From the NCBI GenBank assembly GCA_021815305.1, contig JAKAHC010000002.1, forward strand, positions 62,001 through 126,000: a stretch of DNA of 64,000 nucleotides, in the 5' to 3' direction. Each line of letters begins with the position of its first letter. Within the stretch, counting starts at the first letter, position 1. This document shows, in pieces, positions 26,597 to 42,081 of the stretch. The notes beneath the pieces are model-generated. The model made no database searches. It had not been told where the DNA came from and was given only the letters and a program-made list of their open reading frames with translations. The stretch is from Deltaproteobacteria bacterium (GTDB lineage: Bacteria; Desulfobacterota; Deferrimicrobia; Deferrimicrobiales; Deferrimicrobiaceae). Both the position numbers and the translations under genes were made by a program.

Positions 26597-27481
26597 TTGG
26601 AATATTTCCTCCAACAGGCGCTGAACGGCCTGCAGCTCGGGTTCGTGTACGCGCTGATCGCCCTCGGGTACACGATGGTGTACGGCATCGTGCGCCTGAT
26701 CAACTTCGCCCACGGCGACGTCTTCATGGTCGGGTCGTTCCTCGCCTTCTACGCCATCGACCGGTTTCACCTCCCCCTCACCGCCGTTTTCGGGGTCGCC
26801 GTGGGGGGGTGCGCTCTCCTTGCCGTCGCCATCGAGCGGGTGGCGTACAGGCCGCTGCGCAACGCCCCGAAGATCGCCGCGCTGATCACGGCGATCGGGG
26901 TTTCCCTGTTTTTGGAATACTTCACCGCCCTCCACCAGGTGTTCGGTCCGAACTACTACGCCTTCCCCCGTCCGTTCCGCGTGGTGACATGGGAGGTCGG
27001 AGGCATCGTATTCACCAACATCCAGGCGATCATCCTCGCCGTTACGTTCGCATGCCTGTTGGTTCTGCAGTTCATCGTCTACCGGACCCGGGTGGGGCGG
27101 GGGATGCGCGCCGTCTCGTACGACAAGGTGACCTCAGGGCTCATGGGGGTGAACGTGGACGCGGTGATCTCCTTCACCTTCGGACTCGGCGCAGCCCTGG
27201 CGGGTGTCGGTGGAGTCCTTTACGGGATCGCCTATCCGCAGATCAACACCTTCATGGGGATTATGCCGGGGCTCAAAGCCTTTACCGCTGCGGTCCTTGG
27301 CGGCATCGGGAGCATCCCCGGGGCGCTGCTGGGAGCCCTCATCATGGGACAATCGGAAACGATGGCGGCCGCCTACCTTTCCTCCACCTATCGCGACGGG
27401 ATCGCTTTTCTCCTCCTCATCGGCGTGCTCCTGTGGAAGCCCACCGGGATCCTGGGCAAATCGTCCCAGGAGAAGGTATGA
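26597..27481 (+). CDS. livH: Branched-chain amino-acid ABC transporter permease LivH
   Basis: 294 residues, about eight membrane helices. The N-terminal block GLQLGFVYALIALGYTMVYG and INFAHGDVFMVG, and the EAA-like loop LKAFTAAVLGGIGSIPGALL are typical of LivH. TTG start (the only in-frame start that includes the conserved EYFLQQALNGL beginning) with a weak ribosome site, which may lower its yield relative to the binding protein. Stop overlaps the livM start as ATGA. Confidence 0.92.
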   Translation: MEYFLQQALNGLQLGFVYALIALGYTMVYGIVRLINFAHGDVFMVGSFLAFYAIDRFHLPLTAVFGVAVGGCALLAVAIERVAYRPLRNAPKIAALITAIGVSLFLEYFTALHQVFGPNYYAFPRPFRVVTWEVGGIVFTNIQAIILAVTFACLLVLQFIVYRTRVGRGMRAVSYDKVTSGLMGVNVDAVISFTFGLGAALAGVGGVLYGIAYPQINTFMGIMPGLKAFTAAVLGGIGSIPGALLGALIMGQSETMAAAYLSSTYRDGIAFLLLIGVLLWKPTGILGKSSQEKV

Positions 27482-28488
27482 AAGGAAAGGGCGGGAAGAA
27501 GACGTTTCCGGGGAACCTTTCCCGGGTGTTCCTCCCGTTCCTCGGCATCACGGGCGCCTTCCTCCTTCTGGACCGGTACGGGGTGGTCAACCCGTACTGG
27601 ATCCAGATCTTCCAGCTCGCGTGCGTCGTGGCGATCTCCGGCATGGGGCTGAACGTGATCTACGGGTACACCGGCCTGTTCTCCCTCGGACACGCGGCGT
27701 TCTACGGCGTGGGGGCATACACCGCCGCCCTGCTGATGAAGACGTACGTGGCGGCGTATGGAGGCGGGGCCTTCCTCCCCATGCAGGCCGCGTTCTTCTG
27801 CTGCCTGCTCGCCGGGGGGCTCACGGCGGCCCTCCTTGGCGTCCTCGTGGGGCTGCCCGTGCTGCGCCTGACCTCGGACTACCTCGGCATCGCCACGCTG
27901 GGGTTCGGCGTGATCATGAAGGTGGTCTTCGACAATGCGGACAGCGTCCTGCCCCAGCTCGGAGGTGCGCGCGGGATGACGGGGATCGCAAGGATGACAT
28001 CGATCCCGTGGGTTGTCCTGGGGCTCGCGGCAACCACCGCCGTGGTTCGCAATCTCGTCGACTCGACGTTCGGCCGGGCGCTCCTTGCGATCCGCGAGGA
28101 CGAGATCGCAGCCTCCGCCATGGGGATCGACACTTTCCGGTACAAGGTGATCGGGTTCACGGTGGGGTGCGGTTTCGCTGGGCTGGCGGGAGGGCTGTAC
28201 GCGCATCTGTACACGTTTCTCCACCCGAGCAACTTCGATTTTTCCAAGTCGATCGACGTGCTGATGATCGTGGTGCTCGGCGGCATGGGGAACATGACCG
28301 GAACGCTGTTCGCGTCCTTTTGCTGGATCTTCCTCCTGGAGGGGCTGCGCGTTCTCCTGCCGCCCGAGTATCTCGAATTCCGCTGGGTGATGATTCCGGT
28401 CCTGCTGATCGTGACGATGCTGCTTCGTCCGCAGGGGCTCCTGGGGCTGCGGGAGCTGCCCTTCCTGCGCAGCGGGGCGTCCCGTTGA
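27478..28488 (+). CDS. livM: Branched-chain amino-acid ABC transporter permease LivM
   Basis: 336 residues, eight to nine membrane helices. Recognised by LNVIYGYTGLFSLGHAAFYGVGAY, the LRLTSDYLGIATLGFG loop, and the cytosolic RALLAIREDEIAASAMGI coupling region, then VLGGMGNMTGTL. Forms the translocation pore with LivH. ATG overlaps the livH stop, with AGGAGA inside livH as ribosome site; its own stop overlaps the livG start. Confidence 0.93.
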   Translation: MKGKGGKKTFPGNLSRVFLPFLGITGAFLLLDRYGVVNPYWIQIFQLACVVAISGMGLNVIYGYTGLFSLGHAAFYGVGAYTAALLMKTYVAAYGGGAFLPMQAAFFCCLLAGGLTAALLGVLVGLPVLRLTSDYLGIATLGFGVIMKVVFDNADSVLPQLGGARGMTGIARMTSIPWVVLGLAATTAVVRNLVDSTFGRALLAIREDEIAASAMGIDTFRYKVIGFTVGCGFAGLAGGLYAHLYTFLHPSNFDFSKSIDVLMIVVLGGMGNMTGTLFASFCWIFLLEGLRVLLPPEYLEFRWVMIPVLLIVTMLLRPQGLLGLRELPFLRSGASR

Positions 28489-29258
28489 TCCTCGAGGTGG
28501 CCGGGGTCGGAAAGCGCTTCGGCGGGATCCGGGCGCTCGACGGGGTCGACTTCCGGCTCGATCGCGGAGAGCTCGTGGGGATCATCGGCCCCAACGGGTC
28601 GGGGAAGACCACCCTGTTCAACGTGATCACGGGGATCTATCGGCCGGACCAGGGGGCCGTGACAATGGAAGGGGAAGATCTTTCGGCGCTTCCGCCCCAC
28701 GCCATCGCTCGTCGGGGGATCGCGAGGACCTTCCAGAACATCCGCCTGTTCCGGGAGCTGACGGTGACGGACAATGTGCGGATTGCCCACCACCCGCGCA
28801 TCCGGTACGGGCCGGCAGCGGCCCTTCTCCGGACGGATTTGTTCCACCGGGAAGAGCGGCGGACGCTGGAGCAGGCGGAGGAGTTCCTGGCGATCTTTTC
28901 CCTCCAGGGCCGCAGGAAGGAGCCGGCGAAAAACCTGCCGTACGGCGATCAAAGGAAGCTGGAGATCGCGCGAGCCCTGGCGGCGCGCCCGAAGCTCCTT
29001 CTGCTCGACGAACCGGCAGCGGGGATGAACCCGTCCGAGGTGGGGAAGTTGATGGAATTCCTCTCCTTCATCCGGGAGCGTTTCTCTCTCACCGTGCTCC
29101 TCATCGAGCACCGGATGCGACTGGTGATGGGGATCTGCGAGCGGGTGATCGTCATGGACTTCGGTCAGGTGATCGCGCGGGGGTTGCCCGCGGAGATCCG
29201 GAATGATCCCAGGGTGATCGAGGCGTATCTTGGGCAGGGCGCCCGGGACAAGGATTAA
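28485..29258 (+). CDS. livG: Branched-chain amino-acid ABC transporter ATPase LivG
   Basis: 257 residues. Walker A GPNGSGKTT, Walker B LLLLDEPAAG, and a signature region replaced by NLPYGDQRKLEIARAL, which is normal for LivG (the LSYGxQR form). Start is TTG overlapping the livM stop as TTGA; no ATG or GTG exists near the conserved N-terminus, so translation is probably coupled to livM. Pairs with LivF as the ATPase heterodimer. Its stop shares one base with the livF ATG. Confidence 0.92.
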   Translation: MILEVAGVGKRFGGIRALDGVDFRLDRGELVGIIGPNGSGKTTLFNVITGIYRPDQGAVTMEGEDLSALPPHAIARRGIARTFQNIRLFRELTVTDNVRIAHHPRIRYGPAAALLRTDLFHREERRTLEQAEEFLAIFSLQGRRKEPAKNLPYGDQRKLEIARALAARPKLLLLDEPAAGMNPSEVGKLMEFLSFIRERFSLTVLLIEHRMRLVMGICERVIVMDFGQVIARGLPAEIRNDPRVIEAYLGQGARDKD

Positions 29259-29992
29259 TGGGAAAGGCGAAGAGTATGCTTCTAACAGTCGATAATATAA
29301 ACGTATATTATGGCTCTGTACAGGCACTGCGAAATGTCTCGTTCCATGTGTCGCGGGGGGAGATCGTATCTCTCGTCGGGGCGAACGGCGCGGGAAAGAG
29401 CACCACCTTGCGGGCGCTTTCGGGGGTTCTCCGTCCCGCCTCCGGAAGGATCCTGCACGAAGGGGCGCCGATCGCCGGTCTCCCCCCCCACAGGATCGTC
29501 CGTCGGGGGCTTTCGCACGTCCCCGAGGGGCGTGGGGTGTTCGCCAACATGAGCGTGCTCGAGAACCTGGAGATGGGGGGGTACGCCCGTGCATCCGGGA
29601 AGGAGACCGCGGAGGGCATCGCCCGCGTCTTCGAACTGTTTCCGAGACTCGCGGAGCGCCGTGACCAGAACGCCGGGACCCTCTCGGGAGGGGAGCAGCA
29701 GATGCTGGCGATCGGGAGGGCGCTCGTGCGGCGTCCCGGCCTCCTCCTCCTGGACGAGCCTTCCATGGGACTTTCGCCTCTCCTCGTGCGGGAGATCTTC
29801 CGGATGATCGGGGAGATCCACCGGGCCGGGACGACGATCCTCCTCGTGGAACAGAACGCCTGCATGGCACTTTCCGTCGCGGACCGCGCCTACGTGCTGG
29901 AGGCGGGGGAGATCACGCTGGAAGGCAGGGCCTCGGATCTCCGCGAAGACCCGAAGGTGCGAGCCGCCTATCTCGGCGATGCCGTGGAGTGA
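29258..29992 (+). CDS. livF: Branched-chain amino-acid ABC transporter ATPase LivF
   Basis: 244 residues. Walker A GANGAGKST, signature TLSGGEQQMLAIGRAL, Walker B LLLLDEPSMGL, then the LLVEQN switch His region in the LivF form. A second in-frame ATG six codons later (MLLTVDNINVYYG) is the family's usual beginning, so either may be used. The codons just after it (about 50 bases: TCT, ATA, GTA, TAT) are AT-rich and unlike the rest of the operon, possibly to keep the mRNA start unfolded. Confidence 0.92.
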   Translation: MGKAKSMLLTVDNINVYYGSVQALRNVSFHVSRGEIVSLVGANGAGKSTTLRALSGVLRPASGRILHEGAPIAGLPPHRIVRRGLSHVPEGRGVFANMSVLENLEMGGYARASGKETAEGIARVFELFPRLAERRDQNAGTLSGGEQQMLAIGRALVRRPGLLLLDEPSMGLSPLLVREIFRMIGEIHRAGTTILLVEQNACMALSVADRAYVLEAGEITLEGRASDLREDPKVRAAYLGDAVE

Positions 29993-30025: not shown

Positions 30026-30601
30026 ATGCCCGAAAGGGTGAAGATCCTGGTGAGCGCCTGCCTCCTGGGGGAGAACGTCCGGTACGACGGGGGGCACAAG
30101 CGGGACCCCTTCCTCGTGGAGTCCCTGGGACCCTTCGTCACCTGGGTCCCCGTATGCCCGGAGGTCGAATGCGGGCTGCCGGTGCCGCGGGAGGCGATGC
30201 GTCTTGAGGGGGACCCCCGGAGACCGCGCCTCGTGACGGTTTGCGGCGGAGTGGACCTCACGGAGCGCATGGAGCGGTGGGCCGATGCCCGTCTCGAGGA
30301 ACTTTCCGCTGTCGACCTGTGCGGCTACATCTGCAAGAAGGATTCCCCCAGTTCGGGAAGGGAAAGCGTGGGAGTCTACCTTGGGGAAGGCCCCCCTTCA
30401 AGGACCGGCGCGGGGGTGTTCACGCGAAAGTTCATGGAACGGTTCCCGTTGATCCCCGTCGAAGAGGAGGGGCGGCTCGAAGACCCGACGCTTCGGGAGA
30501 TGTTCGTGGAGCGGGTATTCTTCCTGCGCCGTTTCCGGGACCTCCTGGAAAAGCCCTTTTCCCCCCACCTCGCCGAACTGATGTTGCGCAACCATGTGTG
30601 A
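30026..30601 (+). CDS. DUF523 family protein
   Basis: 191 residues. Typical DUF523 blocks: VKILVSACLLGENVRYDGGHK at the N-terminus, PVCPEVECGLPVPREAM, and LCGYICKKDSPSSGRE, with Cys residues conserved across the family (SACLLG, CPE, CGL, CGYICK). These suggest a metal or Fe-S site; function is unknown. AAGGAAGG ribosome site. Follows the liv operon by 33 bp and could be its last gene. Its stop lies 3 bp from that of the giant minus-strand gene. Confidence 0.85.
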   Translation: MPERVKILVSACLLGENVRYDGGHKRDPFLVESLGPFVTWVPVCPEVECGLPVPREAMRLEGDPRRPRLVTVCGGVDLTERMERWADARLEELSAVDLCGYICKKDSPSSGRESVGVYLGEGPPSRTGAGVFTRKFMERFPLIPVEEEGRLEDPTLREMFVERVFFLRRFRDLLEKPFSPHLAELMLRNHV

Positions 30602-30604
30602 TGC

Positions 30605-33600
30605 TCACGGGCGGACGTAGCCCACGGGCATCGGGTCCACCCGGGGAGAGGCGCCGCCCGAAAGGATCTTGAGCACCTCGTCCTCCAGGATCTTTTCACC
30701 CCCTGCGGGGGGAGATACCAGGAAGGAGACCCGGATCGTCTTTACCGGGAGGAGGAAGTGCTGTTCCGCCAGGAAGGTCCGCACGGCCTGGCGCAGGGCG
30801 GCGAGCAGCAGCAGGCTCTCCCCGGGCCCCTCCGGAGGTCCTGCGACGACGAGGTGGCCTCCGTCCCGGACCGCGCGCGACGATTCCGCGAGGAGGGCGA
30901 TGAGTTTCTGCACGTGGGCTATGGTGCGTCGTTTTTCCGTCGTGTCGAACGCGAGGAGATTCCCGTTCCCCGTCGTGGTGCCCGCGAGCAGGAGGGCGAA
31001 GGCGGGAGGCCGTCCGCCCATCAGGGTGTTGTCCATCCACGGTTCGACGACCCTGGCGTCCGCGAGGTCGAGCGCGCGATGTTGCGTCTCCCGGGAGCGT
31101 CCGCCTTTCGGGGAGGAACCGGGAACGGGACGTGCGATCACCGCGTGGCCCGGAGGGGATTCCGCGTCCGATACGGAGGTCAGTCGAGCTCCTTTCCGCG
31201 CCAGGGCATCGTGCAGCCGCCGGTGGAGGGGGCCTGCGTTTCCGCTGGATACGACCAGGCCCGGTTCCCCCGCCGCGAGAACCCGGAGGGCTCCCTGAGC
31301 GGGTGGGAAGGTGGCGAAGGGGGGGAGGGTCGTGATCGCGATGAACGGGTTCTCGAGGAACTGCCCGTCCTTTGCCGCGAACAGCACGGCTTCCGCGACC
31401 TGCGCGTTTTCCGGAGGTGCGGCGGGAACCGTGGATCGGAGCCACTCCTCGATCCTTCCGTACCACGCCTCCATGGATTCGCGCGTTCTCCCGGAAAGTT
31501 TCCGGCTGCGCAGGAGCGCAAGAAATGCGGCTTTCGCGGATTTTTGCCCTTCAAGGTGCAGGGTACCGTCGAAGGAGCGCAGGAAATGCTCCGTCAGTTC
31601 CTTCCGGGTCGTCTCCGAAAACGAGGGAACCTCATCGAATGCGGCGGAGAACCGGGCGGCGTAGTTCCGCAATACCCAGTCCATGCGCGGGCCGGCGATC
31701 AGGGTCGGGGCGACATCCGTCAAGTGGACGTTCTCCCGGGCAAGCTCCTCGCGGGACGCCCTCGTCAGGGCCTTCAGGAGGATTTTCGAAACGGTGTAGA
31801 TCGCGCGGAAGAGATACGGGTGATCGGCGTAGTGCGTGGACACGTTGACGATCGCGCCGCCGCTATGCTGACGGCGCATGATCTCCCGCGCTTCGGCGAC
31901 GGCTTCCCACGCGCCGAGGAAATTGATCGAGAGAACCGCGGCGAAGTTGACCCGGTGGTCTCGCATCACTTCGTCGAGGCGGGAGAAGTTCCCGCCGACC
32001 CCCGCGTTGTTCACCAGGAGATCGACCCGCCCGAAGCGGTTCCTCGCTTCATGGAGCAGGGCGTGCACGTTCCCCGGCCGGGCGATGTCCGTGTTGACCC
32101 ATAGGGCCCGGCCTCCCGCCCGGCGCATGGTCGCAAGGGCGGCGTCCGCGGCCGCGAACTCCTCCCGCGCCTTTTTCGCCTGCTCCGGATCCGTCGATCC
32201 CGTCGGGGGATACCGGCTTCCGATGACGACCGTGGCGCCTTCTCCCGCCAGGCGCAGGGAGATCTCCTTCCCCAGGTTCACCATCCCTCCGGTGACGACC
32301 GCCACCTTCCCGGAGACCTTCCCGGGGGTTTCCTTGGGCTCGGGGGGAAGGGAAGGAACGGCGTTCTGTTCGTCGGGGAGGAGAACGGCGCCGGAGACCC
32401 GCTTCCCCTCCTCCAGGAGCCAGAGCACGGAGGCTGCCGTCGCCTCGGGGCGGGCCTGCCGGTTCCTGCCGTCCGTCCTTCCCGGGAGAACCAGGTCGAT
32501 ATTGATGTTCGACACGTGGGAGGGTGAGGTGCCGTCGGTTTGCGCCTTCCGCATGAGGGCGCGCTCCATCGCCTCGGTCGCCACGGCGGGACGCAGCATC
32601 GCCTGGAACACCTGGACAAGGTTCCGTTCGCGGATCGAAGGGACTCCGGAGAGGTCCGGCCCCACGAGGACGATCGTCCCGTCCGTTCCCTCCTTGTCCA
32701 TGCGGCGTTCCGCCTGCCAGCAGAAGAAGCGGGGCATCGCGCCGAACTCCTCCACGCGGGCGGTCCACTCGTCGTGGGAGAGGGCGGTCAGGGCCCGCTT
32801 CCAGTCCACGCTCCCGGTGAAGTACAGGAGCAAGTCGAGGCGGGGAAGGCCGTCGAACAGTTCCTGGACCTGGGCGGCATGGGAGAGGCTGACCGGGGAT
32901 ACGGTGGCGGTTCCCTCTCCCCCTCGCGCGTTGATCTCCAGGGCCAGGGCTTCGAGGGTCTCGACGCGGTTCCCGGTGAGGACCACCGCCGCCCCGGCGC
33001 GGGCGAGCGAAGTCGCGGACGCTTCGATTAAAGGGAGGTCGCCCGAAAGGGCCCGGCCGACCACCGCCAGAGCGACCTTCCCGACCATGTCCGGGTAGCG
33101 GGAGAGGGCGGCGGGGGATGGAAGGACCCCCGGGGGTTGCTCGTAAGTGACCCCGCCCATCGGCAGGCGGACTCCTCCGACGGTTCTGCGGAAAGGCCCC
33201 TCCGCCACCGCCAGGGCGAGCGCCGCGAAGTCCCGGGGGTCCACGAAGGCGCGCCCCACCGTCCGATCGAGGGTGTCCCGCTCCAGCGCCTCCGGCGGCA
33301 CGGTCCGGCCGATGCGGGCCCGGGCCTTCGCCCCCTTGTCGAACACGCCGGTCCCTCGGCGGATCCTTTCCGTGGAGACGGCCGAAGGGTTGAGGGACAG
33401 CACGGTGATGCCCTTCCCCGCGAGCGTCCAGGAAAGGTAGTCCCCCAGTGCAAGCTTGGCGGACTGGGCGCAGGTGTACGGGAGCCTGCCCGGGTAGGCG
33501 TGAAGCACATGGCGGTGGATGCTTTCGCTGTAGAAGGTGCCCACCATGACGATCGTGCCGCCTCCGTCCTGGGCTTCCATGATGCGGGCCGCCTCCAGCG

Positions 33601-36600
33601 ACGCCATCCACGATCCCGTGAGGTGCACGTTCACCGCCTCCCGGTACTCGTCGAAGTGCCCTTCCTCGTACACGGAGCCGAACACTACGGGACCGGACAC
33701 CCCGGCATTGTTGTAAAGAACGTCGATCCGGCCGAACTCTTTTTCGATCCGCTCGAACATTTCCCCCACGTACTTGGGATCGGACACGTCCCCCTGGACG
33801 GTGAGGGTCTGGTTCGTCAGCCCCATGTGGCGGATGAGGGCGTCCATGTCCTCCTGCGTCTCGAGGAGGGGGGCAGGCCTCCTTCCCGTGATCACCACGT
33901 TCCCGCCGCGGAGCGCGGCCTCGAGGGCGAGGGAGCGGCCCATGCCGGTGCCTCCCCCGGTGATCACGACGACCTTCCCCGCGAGGGAAGTGTCCGGGTA
34001 CTGCACATGACGGTAGGTGTGGGTCCTCGCGGTCATGCCGCGGATCAGGTGGCTGGCCCTCGCGGGGTTCCCCTCCTTTTCCAGAGAAGCGAAGAGGGTC
34101 ATGAGAGGGTCGGCGACAGGGTATTCCGCGTACACCTCCGGAATCCGGCGGCGGGTTTCCGGCGGAAGGGACTGGAAGAAGCGGTACGCCTCCAGGGTGC
34201 CCTTGACCGCCGCGGAGAACTGGCGCTCGATCGAAAGCTTTTCGTCGGGGAACGCCGCGTCGCGCACGAACCGGCATGCGAGCAGGGCGGGGATCGCATC
34301 GTCGAAACGCCCCGATGCCATCCCGTCCAGCAGGCGCTGCACGAACCCCTGCTCGAAGACCCAGTGAACGCAGTCGTTCCCGTCGATGACCTTCCCCGAG
34401 GGGCGCGACAACTCCCGGACGACGTGGACCGTGCGTGGCTCGGCACCCCCGGCCGCGCCGCCTGCGCTTCCCGGACCGCTCCCCGGGGGTTGTCGGGCCA
34501 GTGCGTTCGCGCGAGACAGCAATTTCGACAGGGCGAGCGCCTTGGGGCCCGCCCAGTCCTCCGCCGCCACCTCGCCGCCGGCGACGGTCAGTCCCTCGAA
34601 CGCGGGGTCCGCGCCGAGGGCGTAGGAACGAACCGCCACCGCGAGGAGACGTTGCGCCTCCTCGCGGCAAGGTTGCGGCGTATTCGCGGAATCGACCACC
34701 TTTCTCAGGATCTGCATCGCACGGTCGGCGTCTCCTTCGTCCAGGGTGGCGCGTCCCTTCGCGGTTTCCTCGCGGGCGATCTCTCCGTGCGCCGACGACA
34801 GGGCTTCCGATACCAATCGCCGGTATCGTTCGCCCATTTCCCGGGCGCGGGAGAGGACCGCCGCGACCTTTCCCTCGTCGCCCTTGAAGAAGTTCGAAAG
34901 CTCCTCTTTGCGGAAATCGTCCGGTTCGTAATCGTCGCTGAGAATCCGGTCAAAGTATCCGAAGTCGCGGTCCGCCCCGGCCTGCGCCACGATGTACCGG
35001 TTCAGGTCGCTCAGGGGGGCGGGGCCGTCCTTGGGCGGGATCGCATTGTACGCGGACTCGCACAGCACTGCGACCATGTGGGGGTAGCCGAACACCCACT
35101 CGAGGATCGGGTGGAGGATCGACTGGTACACCACGTGGGGACGTCGGGCGTTCCGATCGAGGAACGCCCGGGTCAGAAAGATCCGGGGGAGCGCGCCCTT
35201 TTCGTTCCGGAAACGTTTTTTCCCCTCCCATACGAGGCGGCCGTTCTTTTCGACGAGGAGGACTTCGCAGGCGGGACGCGCGTTCTCCCGCCGGAAACCG
35301 TCCTCTTCCCCCAGGTCGACCACGCGGACGGTGATCTTTCCGCGTGCGAGGAGGGAGGCGATGCGCCCGCCCACCTTGCCGGCCTGCGCCGCGTCGATAC
35401 CTCGCAGGATCTCCGGGGCGGGCCGTTCCGAAAGGAGCGATATCACCTCGGCAAGGGTCTTCCTCGGGAGGGGAGTCACGGCGTCGGAACGGATCTTCCC
35501 CTCGATGAGGGCGGCGATCTCCGCGATTTCCACGAAGGAGATGGGGCGATCGCCGGGAGCTTTTTTCGAGATGGGATGCCGTCGACTCTCCGGGGGGTCG
35601 TCAGGGGGAAGGATCGTCAGGAAGGAGGACTGGGAGGGGTCCTTCGCGAGGAATCTTCCCACCCACTCCTGCCCTCCGGGCGAAGCGGCGACGGCCCCGA
35701 ACATCCTGGCATCGTTGCGCAGACCCTCGAGGAACCCCTTCTCATAACCGTAACGCAACGCCACGAGGATGTCCCGTGCCGCGGCCCGGCGCGCCGCCGG
35801 GAGGTCGGAGGCCGTATCATTCGTCGGGGTGGGGGCCGAGAGGATCTCCCGGACTTCCGGGCGCGAGAACAGGGCCGACAGTTCCCCCGTCTGCGCCGAG
35901 GCGATCCCGTCCCAATCCCGTCGGGGGGTCGCACGTACCCCGTCGGCGAAGCTCCTTGCGATCGCGACCGCGCGGGAAAGGGCTTTCGCGGAGGGTGCGA
36001 ACTCGTCGGCAAGCCCCGCCGCCACGGCGGCGTGCCCGTCCAGGGGTTCCCCGTTGACGCACATCCCGGACGCCGCCCACGGTCCCACGAGGCGGGGCAG
36101 GCGCTGCAACCCGCCGTAGCCGGGGATGATGCCGAGTTTCACCTCGGGCTGCCCCAGCAGGGCGTTCTCCGTGACGATGCGGTAATGGGCGCTCATGGCG
36201 AGTTCGTTGCCGCCTCCCAGGGCGAAGCCGTCGATCAGCGCCACCACGGGGACGGGAAGGTTTTCCAGTTCGGTGAAAGCGGAAATGTTTTTCCAGGCGA
36301 GCGCGTCCACGCTTTCCGCGGTCTTTCCCAGGAACTCCTTGACGTCGGCGCCCGCCACGAAGGCGCGCCCCGCCCCGGTGAGGACGATCGCCTTGACGCT
36401 CCTTCCCCCGATCGACCCGAGGGCGGCCGTTTCGCGCACGACGGCGGCGAACTGGGAGAGGAGATCCTCGCTCAGGGCGTTGAGAGCTTCGGGCCGCGTC
36501 AGCGTCACTACGGCGATGTCCGCAAGGACGCGCACGTCGACGAACTTCCCCGCCGCGGAGTCGGCCTGCTGGACGACATCCCCCCGGAACGCGTTCTCGT

Positions 36601-38350
36601 AGTCGCGCAGCGTGCGCCCCGGCCGGTCCGCCTGCACGAGCGCCACCCCCTTGGGCTTCCGCATCGTGCCGTCCAGCATCTTCTGCTGCAGCGCGGGGAG
36701 GCCGGCGAGGTCGGTGATGTCCAGATCTTCCTGGTCCATCACGATTCTCTGCGATGCGAGCAGTCGCACCACCTCCGCCGCCTGGCTGGCGTGGTACATG
36801 TGCGACCCGCGGATGGCGAGGTCGGCCTTTCCCCGCACCACGACCACGCCGCACGGCATGACGTCCTTTTCGTCGAAGTCCCGCGCCACGAAGGTGCTGA
36901 AGTGCAGGGTGCTCTGGTCCGCGCGGTCCACGACCAGGTCCGGGCTCACCCGGCCCCCGAAGACCTTCCACAGCGCCTTGCCCAGGGACTGCGCGTGCCG
37001 CAGGAACCCCGAGGCGTACTCCGGGTCGGGACGGCCGTCGGGCGACAGCGGGTCCGGCATGTCCTCCGGGAACGTGAAGCCGTCGAGGTCGAGCACATGG
37101 GTCGGCGGGATCCCCATCTTCGAGAGCGCGGCGATTCCGCGTTTTTCCTTCGAAGCGGAGGCAAGGACGACCACTTCGGCGGAACGATCTTTCGCCGCGC
37201 GGACGAATTCCCGTGCGGACCGGTCGGCGCCCCAGACCAGGACGCGCCGTCCCGGAGGGAGGCCGACCCCGTCGAGGACGGCGTCAGGCCGTGCGGACCG
37301 GAAGAGAACCTGCTTCTGCCTCATCCAGACCCATCGGGCATCCATTACGAACCGACGCCCCGCGGTGAAAAACGTCTCCTTGTATTCCCCTTTGAGTCCC
37401 TTGCCGGTCGCGCCGAAAAATACGAGCGATCCCCCGGGGGCCAGGACGGATACCAGGAGCGGGAAATTCCCTCCTCCCGTGTGCTCGAAGACCTTGTCTA
37501 CGGGGCGGCCGCCGTTTGCGTCCCGGACGGCGCGGCGGAACGGCTCCGTCCTGCGCTCCCAATCCTCGAACGGCATGCCTGCCGGAATCAACCCGAAAAC
37601 CTCCCCGGGCAGGGATCGCCGGTCCAGGAAAGTGTCCGCCATCCCCCGTCGGATCAGTTCCCCGGCGAGCTGGCCGTTGGACCCCATCAGTAGAACCTTC
37701 GCCCCGAGACCCTTGGCGATCTGGGCGCCCGGGAAACTCGTCCCCTTGCCGCCGCCCATCACCAGCACGGCATCGCCTGGACGGACCTCCAGGCGCTCCA
37801 CCATGGCCCGGTAGGCGGTTCCGTACGTCAACAGCACTGCGGCGAGCCGTTCGGGGGTATGGCCGAGAAGCGGTTCCGGCACCGGGATCGCCCGTTCCTC
37901 GTCCACCGCGGCGAACTGGGCGTTGAACCCGTCGTGCGTCTCGTACCCCCGGATGTTGCGTCCCGTCCACGAGTCGAGGATGACCGCCTGGCCGACCTTC
38001 ACGGAACGCACTCCCGGTCCGGCGTCCACGACGATTCCGAGAGCGTCGCTGCCCGGGATATGCACCGATGCGGGATCCCCTTTTCCGAACACGGGAACCG
38101 GAAGTCCCAGGGCGGCGAAATTCGTGTTGAAATTGGGCCCGGTCGCAAGCAGGGAAACGAGGACCTTCCCCGCGTCGATCGCCGCGAGGCGGGGTGCGGG
38201 TACGCGCTCCACCTGCAGGGACCTGCCGGGAGGGCCGTACCGTTCGCGGCGGATCGTCAGCGCCAGCATCGTTTCGGGCAGGGGGGTCCCGAGGGTCGGC
38301 GGAACGCCGATCGGCCAGGATTTTCCTCGCGGTGCGTGGGGAACGGACAT
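30605..38350 (-). CDS. Giant multidomain MDR-crotonase-SDR fusion enzyme (2581 aa)
   Basis: A single uninterrupted frame. Residues ~28-360: zinc-independent MDR reductase like crotonyl-CoA carboxylase/reductase (GPNFNTNFAALG, IPGSDALGIV, NIRGYETHDGFNAQF, DARWVWMRQKQVLF). Residues ~365-585: a second MDR nucleotide-binding half (FGKALWKVFGGRVSPDLVVD, RGSHMYHASQAAEVVRL). Residues ~600-935: crotonase with oxyanion loop and both catalytic Glu (716 in GGGNE, 736 in GQPEV). About 940-1450: helical, unassigned. Residues ~1455-1720: SDR 1 with TGGGTGMG and NNAG but Tyr1625 and Lys1632 seven apart. About 1755-1960: SDR 2, cofactor and catalytic motifs lost. About 2012-2260: SDR 3, TGGMVNLG, NNAG, Ser2171, Tyr2185/Lys2189. 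The rest is unassigned. No signal peptide or membrane helix. The start has AAGGAG 6 nt upstream; the longer frame is rejected. The activities suggest reductive or oxidative chemistry on acyl-CoA, substrate unknown. Confidence 0.88.
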   Translation of the reverse strand: MSVPHAPRGKSWPIGVPPTLGTPLPETMLALTIRRERYGPPGRSLQVERVPAPRLAAIDAGKVLVSLLATGPNFNTNFAALGLPVPVFGKGDPASVHIPGSDALGIVVDAGPGVRSVKVGQAVILDSWTGRNIRGYETHDGFNAQFAAVDEERAIPVPEPLLGHTPERLAAVLLTYGTAYRAMVERLEVRPGDAVLVMGGGKGTSFPGAQIAKGLGAKVLLMGSNGQLAGELIRRGMADTFLDRRSLPGEVFGLIPAGMPFEDWERRTEPFRRAVRDANGGRPVDKVFEHTGGGNFPLLVSVLAPGGSLVFFGATGKGLKGEYKETFFTAGRRFVMDARWVWMRQKQVLFRSARPDAVLDGVGLPPGRRVLVWGADRSAREFVRAAKDRSAEVVVLASASKEKRGIAALSKMGIPPTHVLDLDGFTFPEDMPDPLSPDGRPDPEYASGFLRHAQSLGKALWKVFGGRVSPDLVVDRADQSTLHFSTFVARDFDEKDVMPCGVVVVRGKADLAIRGSHMYHASQAAEVVRLLASQRIVMDQEDLDITDLAGLPALQQKMLDGTMRKPKGVALVQADRPGRTLRDYENAFRGDVVQQADSAAGKFVDVRVLADIAVVTLTRPEALNALSEDLLSQFAAVVRETAALGSIGGRSVKAIVLTGAGRAFVAGADVKEFLGKTAESVDALAWKNISAFTELENLPVPVVALIDGFALGGGNELAMSAHYRIVTENALLGQPEVKLGIIPGYGGLQRLPRLVGPWAASGMCVNGEPLDGHAAVAAGLADEFAPSAKALSRAVAIARSFADGVRATPRRDWDGIASAQTGELSALFSRPEVREILSAPTPTNDTASDLPAARRAAARDILVALRYGYEKGFLEGLRNDARMFGAVAASPGGQEWVGRFLAKDPSQSSFLTILPPDDPPESRRHPISKKAPGDRPISFVEIAEIAALIEGKIRSDAVTPLPRKTLAEVISLLSERPAPEILRGIDAAQAGKVGGRIASLLARGKITVRVVDLGEEDGFRRENARPACEVLLVEKNGRLVWEGKKRFRNEKGALPRIFLTRAFLDRNARRPHVVYQSILHPILEWVFGYPHMVAVLCESAYNAIPPKDGPAPLSDLNRYIVAQAGADRDFGYFDRILSDDYEPDDFRKEELSNFFKGDEGKVAAVLSRAREMGERYRRLVSEALSSAHGEIAREETAKGRATLDEGDADRAMQILRKVVDSANTPQPCREEAQRLLAVAVRSYALGADPAFEGLTVAGGEVAAEDWAGPKALALSKLLSRANALARQPPGSGPGSAGGAAGGAEPRTVHVVRELSRPSGKVIDGNDCVHWVFEQGFVQRLLDGMASGRFDDAIPALLACRFVRDAAFPDEKLSIERQFSAAVKGTLEAYRFFQSLPPETRRRIPEVYAEYPVADPLMTLFASLEKEGNPARASHLIRGMTARTHTYRHVQYPDTSLAGKVVVITGGGTGMGRSLALEAALRGGNVVITGRRPAPLLETQEDMDALIRHMGLTNQTLTVQGDVSDPKYVGEMFERIEKEFGRIDVLYNNAGVSGPVVFGSVYEEGHFDEYREAVNVHLTGSWMASLEAARIMEAQDGGGTIVMVGTFYSESIHRHVLHAYPGRLPYTCAQSAKLALGDYLSWTLAGKGITVLSLNPSAVSTERIRRGTGVFDKGAKARARIGRTVPPEALERDTLDRTVGRAFVDPRDFAALALAVAEGPFRRTVGGVRLPMGGVTYEQPPGVLPSPAALSRYPDMVGKVALAVVGRALSGDLPLIEASATSLARAGAAVVLTGNRVETLEALALEINARGGEGTATVSPVSLSHAAQVQELFDGLPRLDLLLYFTGSVDWKRALTALSHDEWTARVEEFGAMPRFFCWQAERRMDKEGTDGTIVLVGPDLSGVPSIRERNLVQVFQAMLRPAVATEAMERALMRKAQTDGTSPSHVSNINIDLVLPGRTDGRNRQARPEATAASVLWLLEEGKRVSGAVLLPDEQNAVPSLPPEPKETPGKVSGKVAVVTGGMVNLGKEISLRLAGEGATVVIGSRYPPTGSTDPEQAKKAREEFAAADAALATMRRAGGRALWVNTDIARPGNVHALLHEARNRFGRVDLLVNNAGVGGNFSRLDEVMRDHRVNFAAVLSINFLGAWEAVAEAREIMRRQHSGGAIVNVSTHYADHPYLFRAIYTVSKILLKALTRASREELARENVHLTDVAPTLIAGPRMDWVLRNYAARFSAAFDEVPSFSETTRKELTEHFLRSFDGTLHLEGQKSAKAAFLALLRSRKLSGRTRESMEAWYGRIEEWLRSTVPAAPPENAQVAEAVLFAAKDGQFLENPFIAITTLPPFATFPPAQGALRVLAAGEPGLVVSSGNAGPLHRRLHDALARKGARLTSVSDAESPPGHAVIARPVPGSSPKGGRSRETQHRALDLADARVVEPWMDNTLMGGRPPAFALLLAGTTTGNGNLLAFDTTEKRRTIAHVQKLIALLAESSRAVRDGGHLVVAGPPEGPGESLLLLAALRQAVRTFLAEQHFLLPVKTIRVSFLVSPPAGGEKILEDEVLKILSGGASPRVDPMPVGYVRP

Positions 38351-38527
38351 GGGGGACTCCTTCGTTCCGGGATGACGGGAAACCGCACGGCGCGTCCCAT
38401 GCGCCCCCGTTGGATGCACGATGCAGGGGATATTCTTCGCAGCCAAACATCATTTTGAACGGGCCGGGCGGAAATGCAACGTCCGAGGAAATCCGGGGGA
38501 GGAAAGGGGAAAGGCCAAAGGTGCATA
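38351..38527. other. Intergenic region upstream of the giant gene
   Basis: Gap between the giant minus-strand gene and the cold-shock promoter, which point away from each other. It must hold the giant gene's promoter. A TTCAAA and GAATAT pair 18 nt apart on the minus strand (about 38420-38452) is the best candidate but is weak. No open frame with a ribosome site. Confidence 0.3.
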
Positions 38528-39071: not shown

Positions 39072-40187
39072 ATGAGGATGCGCATCGGGGTTCCGCGGGA
39101 GAAGAAGGACGGTGAGAACCGGGTGGCCATGACGCCGGCGGGCGCGCGAGCATTGCGCGCCGCCGGCGCCGAGGTCGTCGTGGAAACCGGCGCCGGGGAT
39201 TCCAGCGGTTTCCCCGACCGGGAGTATCGGGAGTCGGGTGCCGCCGTGGTCCTCGACGCTGCGCAAGCATGGTCGGCCGACCTCGTGGTCAAGGTGAAAG
39301 AGCCTCTCCCCTCCGAATTCCGGCATCTGTCCCCATCCGGCGCGCTGTTCACTTTCCTCCATCTTGCGGCCTTTCCCGAACTGACGGCGGAGCTTCTGTC
39401 GCGGCGGGTCGCCTCCATCGCCTACGAAACGGTGTCGGCGGATGGCGGGCTCCCCATCCTGCGCCCGATGAGCGAAGTCGCGGGAAAGATCTCCCTCCAG
39501 GTGGGCGCCCGGGGTCTCGAAAAAGCTTGCGGAGGACGGGGCGTGCTGCTGTCCGGAGCGGGCGGTTCCCCTCCCGGGGATGTGTGCGTGCTCGGGGCGG
39601 GAGTTGCGGGGAGCTGCGCGGCGCAGGTTGCCTCCGGTGTCGGAGCTTCCGTCACGGTGCTGGACGTCCGGCCCGAAAAACTCGCGAACGCGAAAGCGTT
39701 GTGCGGGGAACGGGTCCGGACGGTGCCGTCCTCCCCCGAAGCGGTCGGTGCCGCCGTGCGGCAGGCCGACCTCGTCATCTCAACGGTGCTCCGGGTGGGG
39801 GAGCGGGCCCCCATGCTCCTGACAAGGGATACCCTGCGTGCGATGCGCCCGGGATCGGTCGTGGTCGACATCGCCATCGACCAGGGCGGGTCGTTCGAGA
39901 CCTCCCGTCCGACGACGCACGAGGCCCCGTATTACCTGGAGGAAGGAATCGTCCACTACTGCGTGGCGAACATGCCCGCGGCGGTGCCGCGGACTTCCAC
40001 GCAGGCGCTGACCGCGGCGACGCTGCCGTACCTCCTGCAGTTCGCGCGAAAGGGAGTTCTCGACGCGTTGCGGTCGGACGAGGGGTTGCTCGCGGGACTC
40101 AACACCTGCGGGGGGCACATCACCTGCGGAGGGGTGGCGAAGGCGTACGGCAGGGAGTGCGTGCCGCCGCGGGAAGCGCTCCCATAG
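39072..40187 (+). CDS. ald: Alanine dehydrogenase
   Basis: 371 residues, the usual size. The N-terminus MRIGVPREKKDGENRVAMTPAG is diagnostic; the substrate-binding Lys is in VKVKEPL and the catalytic His in FTFLHLAAFPEL. The NAD-binding VLGAGVAGSCAAQVA carries the GxGxxG pattern (A in place of the second-last Gly). It interconverts alanine and pyruvate with NAD. Two ATGs (39072 and 39078) both have GGGGG upstream; the first is used. It converges on coaE with 27 bp between stops. Confidence 0.93.
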   Translation: MRMRIGVPREKKDGENRVAMTPAGARALRAAGAEVVVETGAGDSSGFPDREYRESGAAVVLDAAQAWSADLVVKVKEPLPSEFRHLSPSGALFTFLHLAAFPELTAELLSRRVASIAYETVSADGGLPILRPMSEVAGKISLQVGARGLEKACGGRGVLLSGAGGSPPGDVCVLGAGVAGSCAAQVASGVGASVTVLDVRPEKLANAKALCGERVRTVPSSPEAVGAAVRQADLVISTVLRVGERAPMLLTRDTLRAMRPGSVVVDIAIDQGGSFETSRPTTHEAPYYLEEGIVHYCVANMPAAVPRTSTQALTAATLPYLLQFARKGVLDALRSDEGLLAGLNTCGGHITCGGVAKAYGRECVPPREALP

Positions 40188-40949: not shown

Positions 40950-41270
40950 ATGGCGGAGACCACGGTCCAGGAGTTCTTCGAAGGATTGGCGGAGAAGTTG
41001 AACGGGAAGCCGGAAAAGATCGCCGGCATGAAGTGCGTCTACCAGTTCCGGGTCGGGAACGCCGCGTACCGTGTCGCCCTGGACGAAGGGAAAGCCGGCG
41101 TTGCGGCGGGGGAGGCGGTGTCGCCGAACTGCACCGTCACGATGGCGGAGCCCGATTTCCTCGATCTCATTTCGGGAAAACTGAACGGCCAGATGGCTTT
41201 CCTCACCGGGAAGCTCAAGGTGGCCGGCGACATGGGGCTTGCCCTCAAGCTGGGATCGTTCCTCGGCTGA
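40950..41270 (+). CDS. SCP2 sterol-binding domain protein
   Basis: 106 residues, a single SCP2 domain: CVYQFRVGNAAYRVALDEGK, CTVTMAEPDFLDLISGKLNG and the C-terminal LKVAGDMGLALKLGSFL. SCP2 folds bind lipids or acyl chains in a hydrophobic tunnel; bacterial ligands are mostly unknown. GGGAGGGG ribosome site. The sirtuin gene starts 31 bp later on the same strand, so the two are likely co-transcribed. Confidence 0.88.
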   Translation: MAETTVQEFFEGLAEKLNGKPEKIAGMKCVYQFRVGNAAYRVALDEGKAGVAAGEAVSPNCTVTMAEPDFLDLISGKLNGQMAFLTGKLKVAGDMGLALKLGSFLG

Positions 41271-41301
41271 AACGGGAAACTTCACGGGAGGTCACGCGGC
41301 C

Positions 41302-42081
41302 GTGGTTTCTTTGGACCTGGTGCGGAAGGCCGCGCGCCTCCTTTCCGGACGTCGGGACGCCGTCGCCCTGACGGGGGCGGGCATCTCCGTGGAGAGCGGG
41401 ATCCCCGCCTTCCGGGGCGCCCAGGGACTTTGGGAGAAGTACGACCCGGGGGAGTACGCGACCCTGCACGCCTTCATGCGATCCCCCCGCAAGGTGTGGA
41501 GCATGCTGTCGGAGCTGCTTTCGGCCTGCGAAGGAGCGACGCCCAACGGGGCGCACCTGGGGCTGGCCGCACTCGAACGGATGGGCATCCTTCGCTCGAT
41601 CATCACGCAGAATGTGGACGGGCTGCACCAGGCGGCGGGTTCCCGCCGGGTGATCGAGTATCACGGGAACATGGATGCGCTCGTCTGCGTGTCCTGCTGG
41701 AAACGATTCCCTGCGCGGGACCGGTGCGCGGAAGGAGGCGTACCCGTGTGCGAATGCGGACAGATCCTGAAACCCGACGTCGTCCTGTTCGGGGAGCCGA
41801 TCCCGTGGCTCGCCCAGGAACAAGCGGAAGAGGAGGCCGGGAGTTGCGGCGTCCTCCTAGTGATCGGGACCTCCGCGGAGGTGTCCCCGGCGTGCAACAT
41901 TCCGGTCCTCTCCAGGGAGGCCGGAGCCGCGGTGGTGGAAATCAACCCCGAGCCCACTCACCTGACCCGCACCGTCACCGACATTCACATCCCCGGGCCG
42001 GCCTCGGAAATCGTGCGCATCCTCGTGTCGGAGCTCTCCCGCGCCGTCCTTCCTCTTTCAGAAACCGGTCCGCGGGATTAA
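41302..42081 (+). CDS. cobB: NAD-dependent protein deacylase, sirtuin family
   Basis: 259 residues. NAD-binding GAGISVESGIPAFRG, TQNVDGLHQ, catalytic His in YHGN, and a zinc site made by CVSC and CECG. The C-terminal VIGTSAEVSPA and VVEINPEPT complete the Rossmann fold. It removes acetyl or other acyl groups from lysine using NAD. The Tyr/Arg pair that marks desuccinylases was not located, so deacetylase is the default. GTG start with GGGAGG 10 nt upstream; the longer frame starting inside SCP2 is rejected. Confidence 0.9.
   Translation: MVSLDLVRKAARLLSGRRDAVALTGAGISVESGIPAFRGAQGLWEKYDPGEYATLHAFMRSPRKVWSMLSELLSACEGATPNGAHLGLAALERMGILRSIITQNVDGLHQAAGSRRVIEYHGNMDALVCVSCWKRFPARDRCAEGGVPVCECGQILKPDVVLFGEPIPWLAQEQAEEEAGSCGVLLVIGTSAEVSPACNIPVLSREAGAAVVEINPEPTHLTRTVTDIHIPGPASEIVRILVSELSRAVLPLSETGPRD

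Follow-up and report, generated by a model that had tools for sequence, protein, structure and literature searches.

The window analysed here is a 64,000-nucleotide stretch of contig JAKAHC010000002.1 from a Deltaproteobacteria bacterium (Deferrimicrobiaceae), and our subject is the very long gene on its minus strand (30605-38350), which reads as a single open frame of 2581 residues in the open reading frame translation of the window. The gene starts with an ATG at 38350, six bases downstream of a GAAGGAG; an alternative in-frame TTG start would lengthen the protein to 2613 residues. Its guanine-plus-cytosine (GC) content at the three codon positions is 0.71/0.49/0.84, and a long plus-strand frame (33137-37693) with the mirror-image pattern is its antisense shadow. 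Because full-length relatives exist, two at 74% identity (L005 and L006) and another at 58% in two frames (L007), the frame is not a product of chance; this conservation, together with split and fused homologues, rules out a chance or artefactual origin. The first-pass annotation of this DNA had described one uninterrupted minus-strand frame and suggested a full-length homology search: the frame holds up, and the whole architecture recurs in other metagenome-assembled genomes (MAGs). In the feature list below, MDR and SDR denote medium- and short-chain dehydrogenase/reductase, CCR crotonyl-CoA carboxylase/reductase, PCS propionyl-CoA synthase, and MCR malonyl-CoA reductase (RfxMCR being that of Roseiflexus).

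30605..38350, minus strand: whole fusion gene, 2581 residues, kept in relatives
38357..38363, minus strand: Shine-Dalgarno-like GAAGGAG ahead of the ATG, from the sequence
36551..38350, minus strand: enoyl-CoA reductase module (MDR, CCR/PCS type), residues 1-600 (TIGR01751 at 171 bits, below cut-off; 4gi2, 6eqo)
36836..37306, minus strand: insert, about residues 349-505, common to the PCS reductase and absent from CCR (alignments)
35606..36538, minus strand: crotonase (hydratase/dehydratase) module, residues 605-915, catalytic E716 and E736 (PF00378; 6eqo 906-1203)
33986..35605, minus strand: MID, residues 916-1455, mostly helical, the beginning of the second gene in split relatives (searches, model, split loci)
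33086..33985, minus strand: SDR1, residues 1456-1755, MCR-C-like layout with T1605, Y1619, R1622, Y1625, and Q1629 (alignments)
33455..33538, minus strand: SDR1 active-site stretch, residues 1605-1632 (YxxRxxYxxxQ), invariant in 10 copies
32327..33085, minus strand: SDR2, residues 1756-2008, degenerate (weak Pfam match; model)
31361..32326, minus strand: SDR3, residues 2009-2330, MCR-N-like (alignments, tree)
31784..31837, minus strand: SDR3 active-site stretch, residues 2172-2189, with the spacing of RfxMCR
30608..31360, minus strand: SDR4, residues 2331-2581, degenerate and Rossmann-like, by model only

Two genes that most relatives in the class carry separately, side by side, are fused in the gene for this 2581-residue protein. 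A class-wide search with fetched neighbourhoods placed part 1 (residues 1-915) and part 2 (residues 916-2581) in separate neighbouring genes in six genomes (G006, G007, G008, G011, G012, and G013), and in five of these six the ATG of the second gene overlaps the stop codon of the first, as ATGA. A single gene holds both parts in the window genome, G022, G015, and G009, and also in G010, where it is divided over two contigs. When part 2 is placed in a tree, the fused copy from G009 is nested within split copies; therefore, fusion occurred more than once or was undone. The first-pass annotation had held that separate domains in relatives would speak against it: relatives do encode them separately, as two coupled genes. 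Part 2 turned up solely in the class of the window (12 of 26 genomes and one 65-residue remnant), with none in the other members of a 395-genome phylum sample, and MAGs with part 1 alone carry the titles Deltaproteobacteria, Gammaproteobacteria, Pseudomonadales, Acidobacteria, Thermoanaerobaculia, and Actinomycetes. Genus g2 still shows the beginning of a lost second gene behind part 1 (G002, G003, and G005), and in G016 the second gene is gone and part 1 is directly followed by a cydA-like gene. The copy of part 2 in G025, from a second family of the class, stands without part 1 (L042:5333-10529) and its frame is broken next to an N of the assembly. Other very long frames with crotonase-like matches were seen in relatives (G011:C1, 2571 residues; G012:C56, 2578; G009:C77, 2552; G007:C196, 2443) and may be antisense frames or belong to a further large multidomain enzyme.

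The layout of part 2 recalls MCR. Three SDR domains had been claimed, and Pfam indeed finds three SDR stretches, but the last ~250 residues resemble, in the model only, a fourth, degenerate Rossmann-like module, giving four SDR-like modules in which catalytic and degenerate ones alternate as in MCR. In Roseiflexus MCR, the semialdehyde site comprises Thr165-Tyr178-Lys182 with Tyr172 and Arg175, the malonyl-CoA site comprises Ser731, Tyr743, Arg746, Tyr749, and Lys753, both sites contain a YXXRXXY motif, and K753A abolishes activity (PMC10470521). SDR3 has T2172, Y2179, R2182, Y2185, and K2189 at a spacing identical to that of T165, Y172, R175, Y178, and K182 in RfxMCR, and it groups with MCR in a tree with support of 90. 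SDR1 carries YxxRxxY as Y1619, R1622, and Y1625, the Arg aligning with R773 of CaMCR; of the Ser-Tyr-Arg-Tyr-Lys of the MCR-C malonyl-CoA site just Tyr-Arg-Tyr is kept, and the active-site residues, including Thr1605 for Ser and Gln1629 for Lys, are invariant in ten copies. SDR1 is also the best-conserved module (about 80-89% versus 40-70% for the others), with an NADP-type glycine motif kept alongside YxxRxxY. Both Tyr and the Arg of this motif occurred together in none of 17 ordinary SDRs from the window genome and other genomes. A model of the SDR region, built from four sequences (mean predicted local distance difference test, pLDDT, 61.6), gave MCR at ranks 1-23 in a Foldseek search of the PDB (E 2e-28 to 1e-11), with generic SDRs from 1.4e-9; a structural second look that aligned single domains listed generic SDRs. 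By sequence, MCR (8hjw) is the top match for each half of the SDR region. The active-site motifs are stronger evidence for likeness to MCR than the fold ranking.

Part 1 joins a reductase to a hydratase. The earlier likening of the MDR module to CCR stands for the MDR core, which scores 170.8 bits against TIGR01751 and does not reach the cut-off of 378.55, but not for an insert of ~150 residues that is of PCS type and missing in CCR: the alignment with CCR (4gi2) ends at 348 and restarts at 513, and that with PCS (6eqo) spans the gap. The top PDB match across both modules is PCS (6eqo), with the module order reversed. When each module is compared by itself, CCR gives the better score for the reductase and other hydratases give the better score for the hydratase; therefore, part 1 is PCS-like in make-up, and PCS descent is not established. 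CCR-type reductases use NADPH and run towards reduction, so that an oxidative role is less likely. Both catalytic Glu residues of the crotonase are present as first reported, and E716 and E736 are invariant in 20 homologues, as are the CCR-type E137, H517, and WMRQK of the MDR module. Roles have been described for E171 and H365 of KsCcr (PMC10966969). Comparison of the CO2 pocket (Asn, Phe, Glu, His) shows Glu and His kept, Phe replaced by Tyr136 (the position of KsCcr Phe170), and the Asn position uncertain; Thr76 follows NFN where PCS has Asp.

Between these regions lies MID, which has no Pfam or PDB sequence match and whose model (pLDDT 68.7) reaches a best Foldseek E of 0.4, so that no known domain was recognised in it. 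A structural second look gave just ~60 residues of TPR-like helix pairs at Z 8-11, which is common for helical models. MID was not found outside the class in the phylum sample, nor in genomes with part 1 alone except for a match in G415 that shares contig coordinates with class member G007. The unassigned middle of ~500 residues noted at first, here 540 residues, belongs to the SDR gene. Our guess is that MID is a scaffold or a replacement for the MCR extra domain.

A nucleoside-diphosphate-forming (NDP-forming) acyl-CoA synthetase sits between alanine dehydrogenase and part 1, divergently, in most relatives. All 16 genomes with part 1 have an ortholog, defined by 70% identity or more, as against one of the ten that lack part 1, uncorrected for relatedness. 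The matches of the synthetase to models of 3-hydroxypropionate- and 4-hydroxybutyrate-CoA ligases stay below cut-off. Since PCS consists of synthetase, hydratase, and reductase, part 1 and this enzyme would give the same three activities, and the ligase that is found in PCS and absent from the fusion is probably this separate synthetase. Gene presence was judged from family searches and selected stretches. The window genome has three carboxyltransferase matches, the best of which adjoins biotin carboxylase and methylmalonyl-CoA mutase genes. Family searches found isocitrate lyase neither in the window genome nor in any other with intact part 2; within the class it is limited to the genus in which part 2 has been lost (G002, C175:3058-4299; G003, C1:1915646-1916887; G004, C242:13484-14725), in genomes with part 1 and no intact part 2. 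Among part 1 genomes, the counts are 0 of 11 with intact part 2 versus 3 of 5 without (p 0.018), a pattern that fits, but does not prove, one route of acetyl-CoA assimilation having taken the place of another. The paper on Deferrimicrobiota (MBNT15) reported no key 3-hydroxypropionate enzymes (PMC9386147).

We propose, with a probability of about 0.55, that the gene is a fusion of a 3-hydroxyacyl-CoA dehydratase/enoyl-CoA reductase with an MCR-like protein in a route from malonyl-CoA to propionyl-CoA, one chain probably carrying most of the conversion of acetyl units to propionyl units. SDR1-SDR2 would reduce malonyl-CoA to malonate semialdehyde, despite the Gln at the Lys position, and SDR3-SDR4 would reduce the semialdehyde to 3-hydroxypropionate; the separate synthetase would form 3-hydroxypropionyl-CoA, the crotonase module would remove water to give acryloyl-CoA, and the MDR module would reduce this to propionyl-CoA. 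The propionyl-CoA carboxylase-like and methylmalonyl-CoA mutase genes would then lead to succinyl-CoA. Of the 3-hydroxypropionate bi-cycle, the analysis covered the half from malonyl-CoA to succinyl-CoA. The likely role is acetyl-CoA assimilation without isocitrate lyase and the glyoxylate shunt. As Gln replaces the catalytic Lys in SDR1, malonyl-CoA reduction is the weakest step.

Several observations weigh against this proposal. Besides Gln for Lys and Thr for Ser, SDR1 has no room for the MCR extra domain and falls with ordinary SDRs in the tree, where a test does not reject its grouping with MCR-C (p 0.34); clear descent of SDR1 from MCR-C is not borne out, and its YxxRxxY could therefore be convergent. 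The lead of MCR in Foldseek comes partly from tandem coverage with a weak model (the pLDDT of 61.6), and, domain by domain, MCR scores no better than generic SDRs. Each part can also be found on its own, part 2 in G025. The window genome carries the synthetase away from the fusion, on another contig (G000:C7:234414-236414), the contrast in isocitrate lyase comes down to essentially a single genus, and the alanine dehydrogenase next door has no explanation in the scheme. The invariant Gln would suit a shorter route in which SDR3 is the sole active reductase, SDR1 has a binding or structural function, and the semialdehyde comes from elsewhere, for example from beta-alanine, the remaining steps being as proposed. 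The alanine dehydrogenase then suggests a link to amino acids, and a methylmalonate-semialdehyde dehydrogenase adjoins part 1 in a genome that no longer has part 2 (G004). We consider this unlikely, as SDR1 is the best-kept module, in glycine motif and YxxRxxY alike, which would be surprising for a dead one.

The first-pass annotation had read the modules as a beta-carbon cycle with ketoreductase activity, and reverse beta-oxidation would run entirely on CoA esters, with an SDR reducing a 3-oxoacyl-CoA such as acetoacetyl-CoA, the crotonase dehydrating, and the MDR module reducing the enoyl-CoA. The three activities match the order of this chemistry, and the protein matches general SDR models of 3-oxoacyl and 3-hydroxybutyrate enzymes. 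Yet a single SDR would suffice, the co-occurring acyl-CoA synthetase would be unneeded, and there would be no use for a carboxylate-binding YxxRxxY in both catalytic SDRs nor for the four-module layout, both of which match MCR instead; we regard this reading as rather improbable. An assembly-line polyketide or fatty acid synthase is ruled out by domain searches, which found, as first noted, no carrier protein or ketosynthase; free CoA esters are probably the substrates. That the proposed route holds with the MDR module as a reductive carboxylase, turning acryloyl-CoA and CO2 into methylmalonyl-CoA, is suggested by the invariant E137, H517, and WMRQK, but seems quite improbable given the Thr76 and Tyr136 replacements and the PCS-type insert, and there would be less need for the carboxylase genes that adjoin the mutase gene. 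It would likewise be a long shot for the chain to be self-contained, MID performing the CoA-transfer or ligase step by a new fold, malonate semialdehyde and acryloyl-CoA being channelled, and SDR1 reducing the thioester without Lys.

The gene had been said to stand alone, and it has no assembly-line partners, but one neighbour adjoins it and the synthetase is conserved nearby in relatives:

39072..40187, plus strand: alanine dehydrogenase, divergent neighbour, kept in relatives (TIGR00518 at 449.6 bits, above cut-off)

The order in relatives is cobB, coaE, alanine dehydrogenase, and synthetase, then divergently part 1, part 2, and a cydA-like gene, with liv genes farther on. Genes for a Sir2-type protein deacylase and dephospho-CoA kinase (41239-42081) belong to this conserved neighbourhood. 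On the other flank lie branched-chain amino-acid type ABC transporter genes (livH, livM, livG, and livF; 26597-29992), also found downstream of the locus in relatives, and between livF and the fusion a gene for a 191-residue protein (30026-30601) with no NCBIfam match, homologues of which lie next to the locus in L006 and L040. In G004 the CoA-acylating methylmalonate-semialdehyde dehydrogenase gene is convergent beside part 1 (L068:4984-6576; TIGR01722 above cut-off), and G005 has remnants of such a gene (L069:9432-9624).

If the proposed function is right, an uncultured bacterial lineage has a malonyl-CoA to propionyl-CoA route with enzymes whose divergence and rearrangement keep standard annotation from naming them, which would widen the range of a 3-hydroxypropionate route otherwise known from few CO2-fixing microbes. 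It would also offer a lysine-less SDR active site for testing, a natural fused enzyme for producing 3-hydroxypropionate or propionyl-CoA, and a likely function for the widespread stand-alone reductase-hydratase.

We found no description of an MCR-PCS fusion and no full-length equivalent in one open-access library of papers, in line with the earlier remark that no described enzyme of this architecture was known. The partner synthetase matches the NDP-forming 3-hydroxypropionate-CoA ligase model (NF045492) across ~370 residues, but at 427 bits against a cut-off of 1300, and also matches 4-hydroxybutyrate and acetate ligase models. With CCR (TIGR01751, 4gi2) the fusion shares the MDR core with its Glu, His, and WMRQK, but it differs by the extra insert, by Thr76 and Tyr136 in the CO2-pocket region, and by its score below cut-off. 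Erythrobacter PCS (6eqo) likewise has a hydratase (aligned over ~290 residues) and an MDR reductase with the same insert in one chain, whereas the fusion has the reverse order, a separately encoded NDP-forming enzyme in place of an acyl-CoA synthetase domain, and a part 1 that exists alone. Compared with the bifunctional MCR of Chloroflexus and Roseiflexus (8hjw, 8hi4; PMC10470521), to which it has about 17% identity in structural alignment, the fusion has the halves in opposite order, MID in front, a junction to hydratase and reductase, and an MCR-C-like half without the extra domain and with the two SDR1 substitutions; alike in both are the series of four SDR modules, in which catalytic ones alternate with degenerate ones, the YxxRxxY of each catalytic module, and, in SDR3, the full semialdehyde site.
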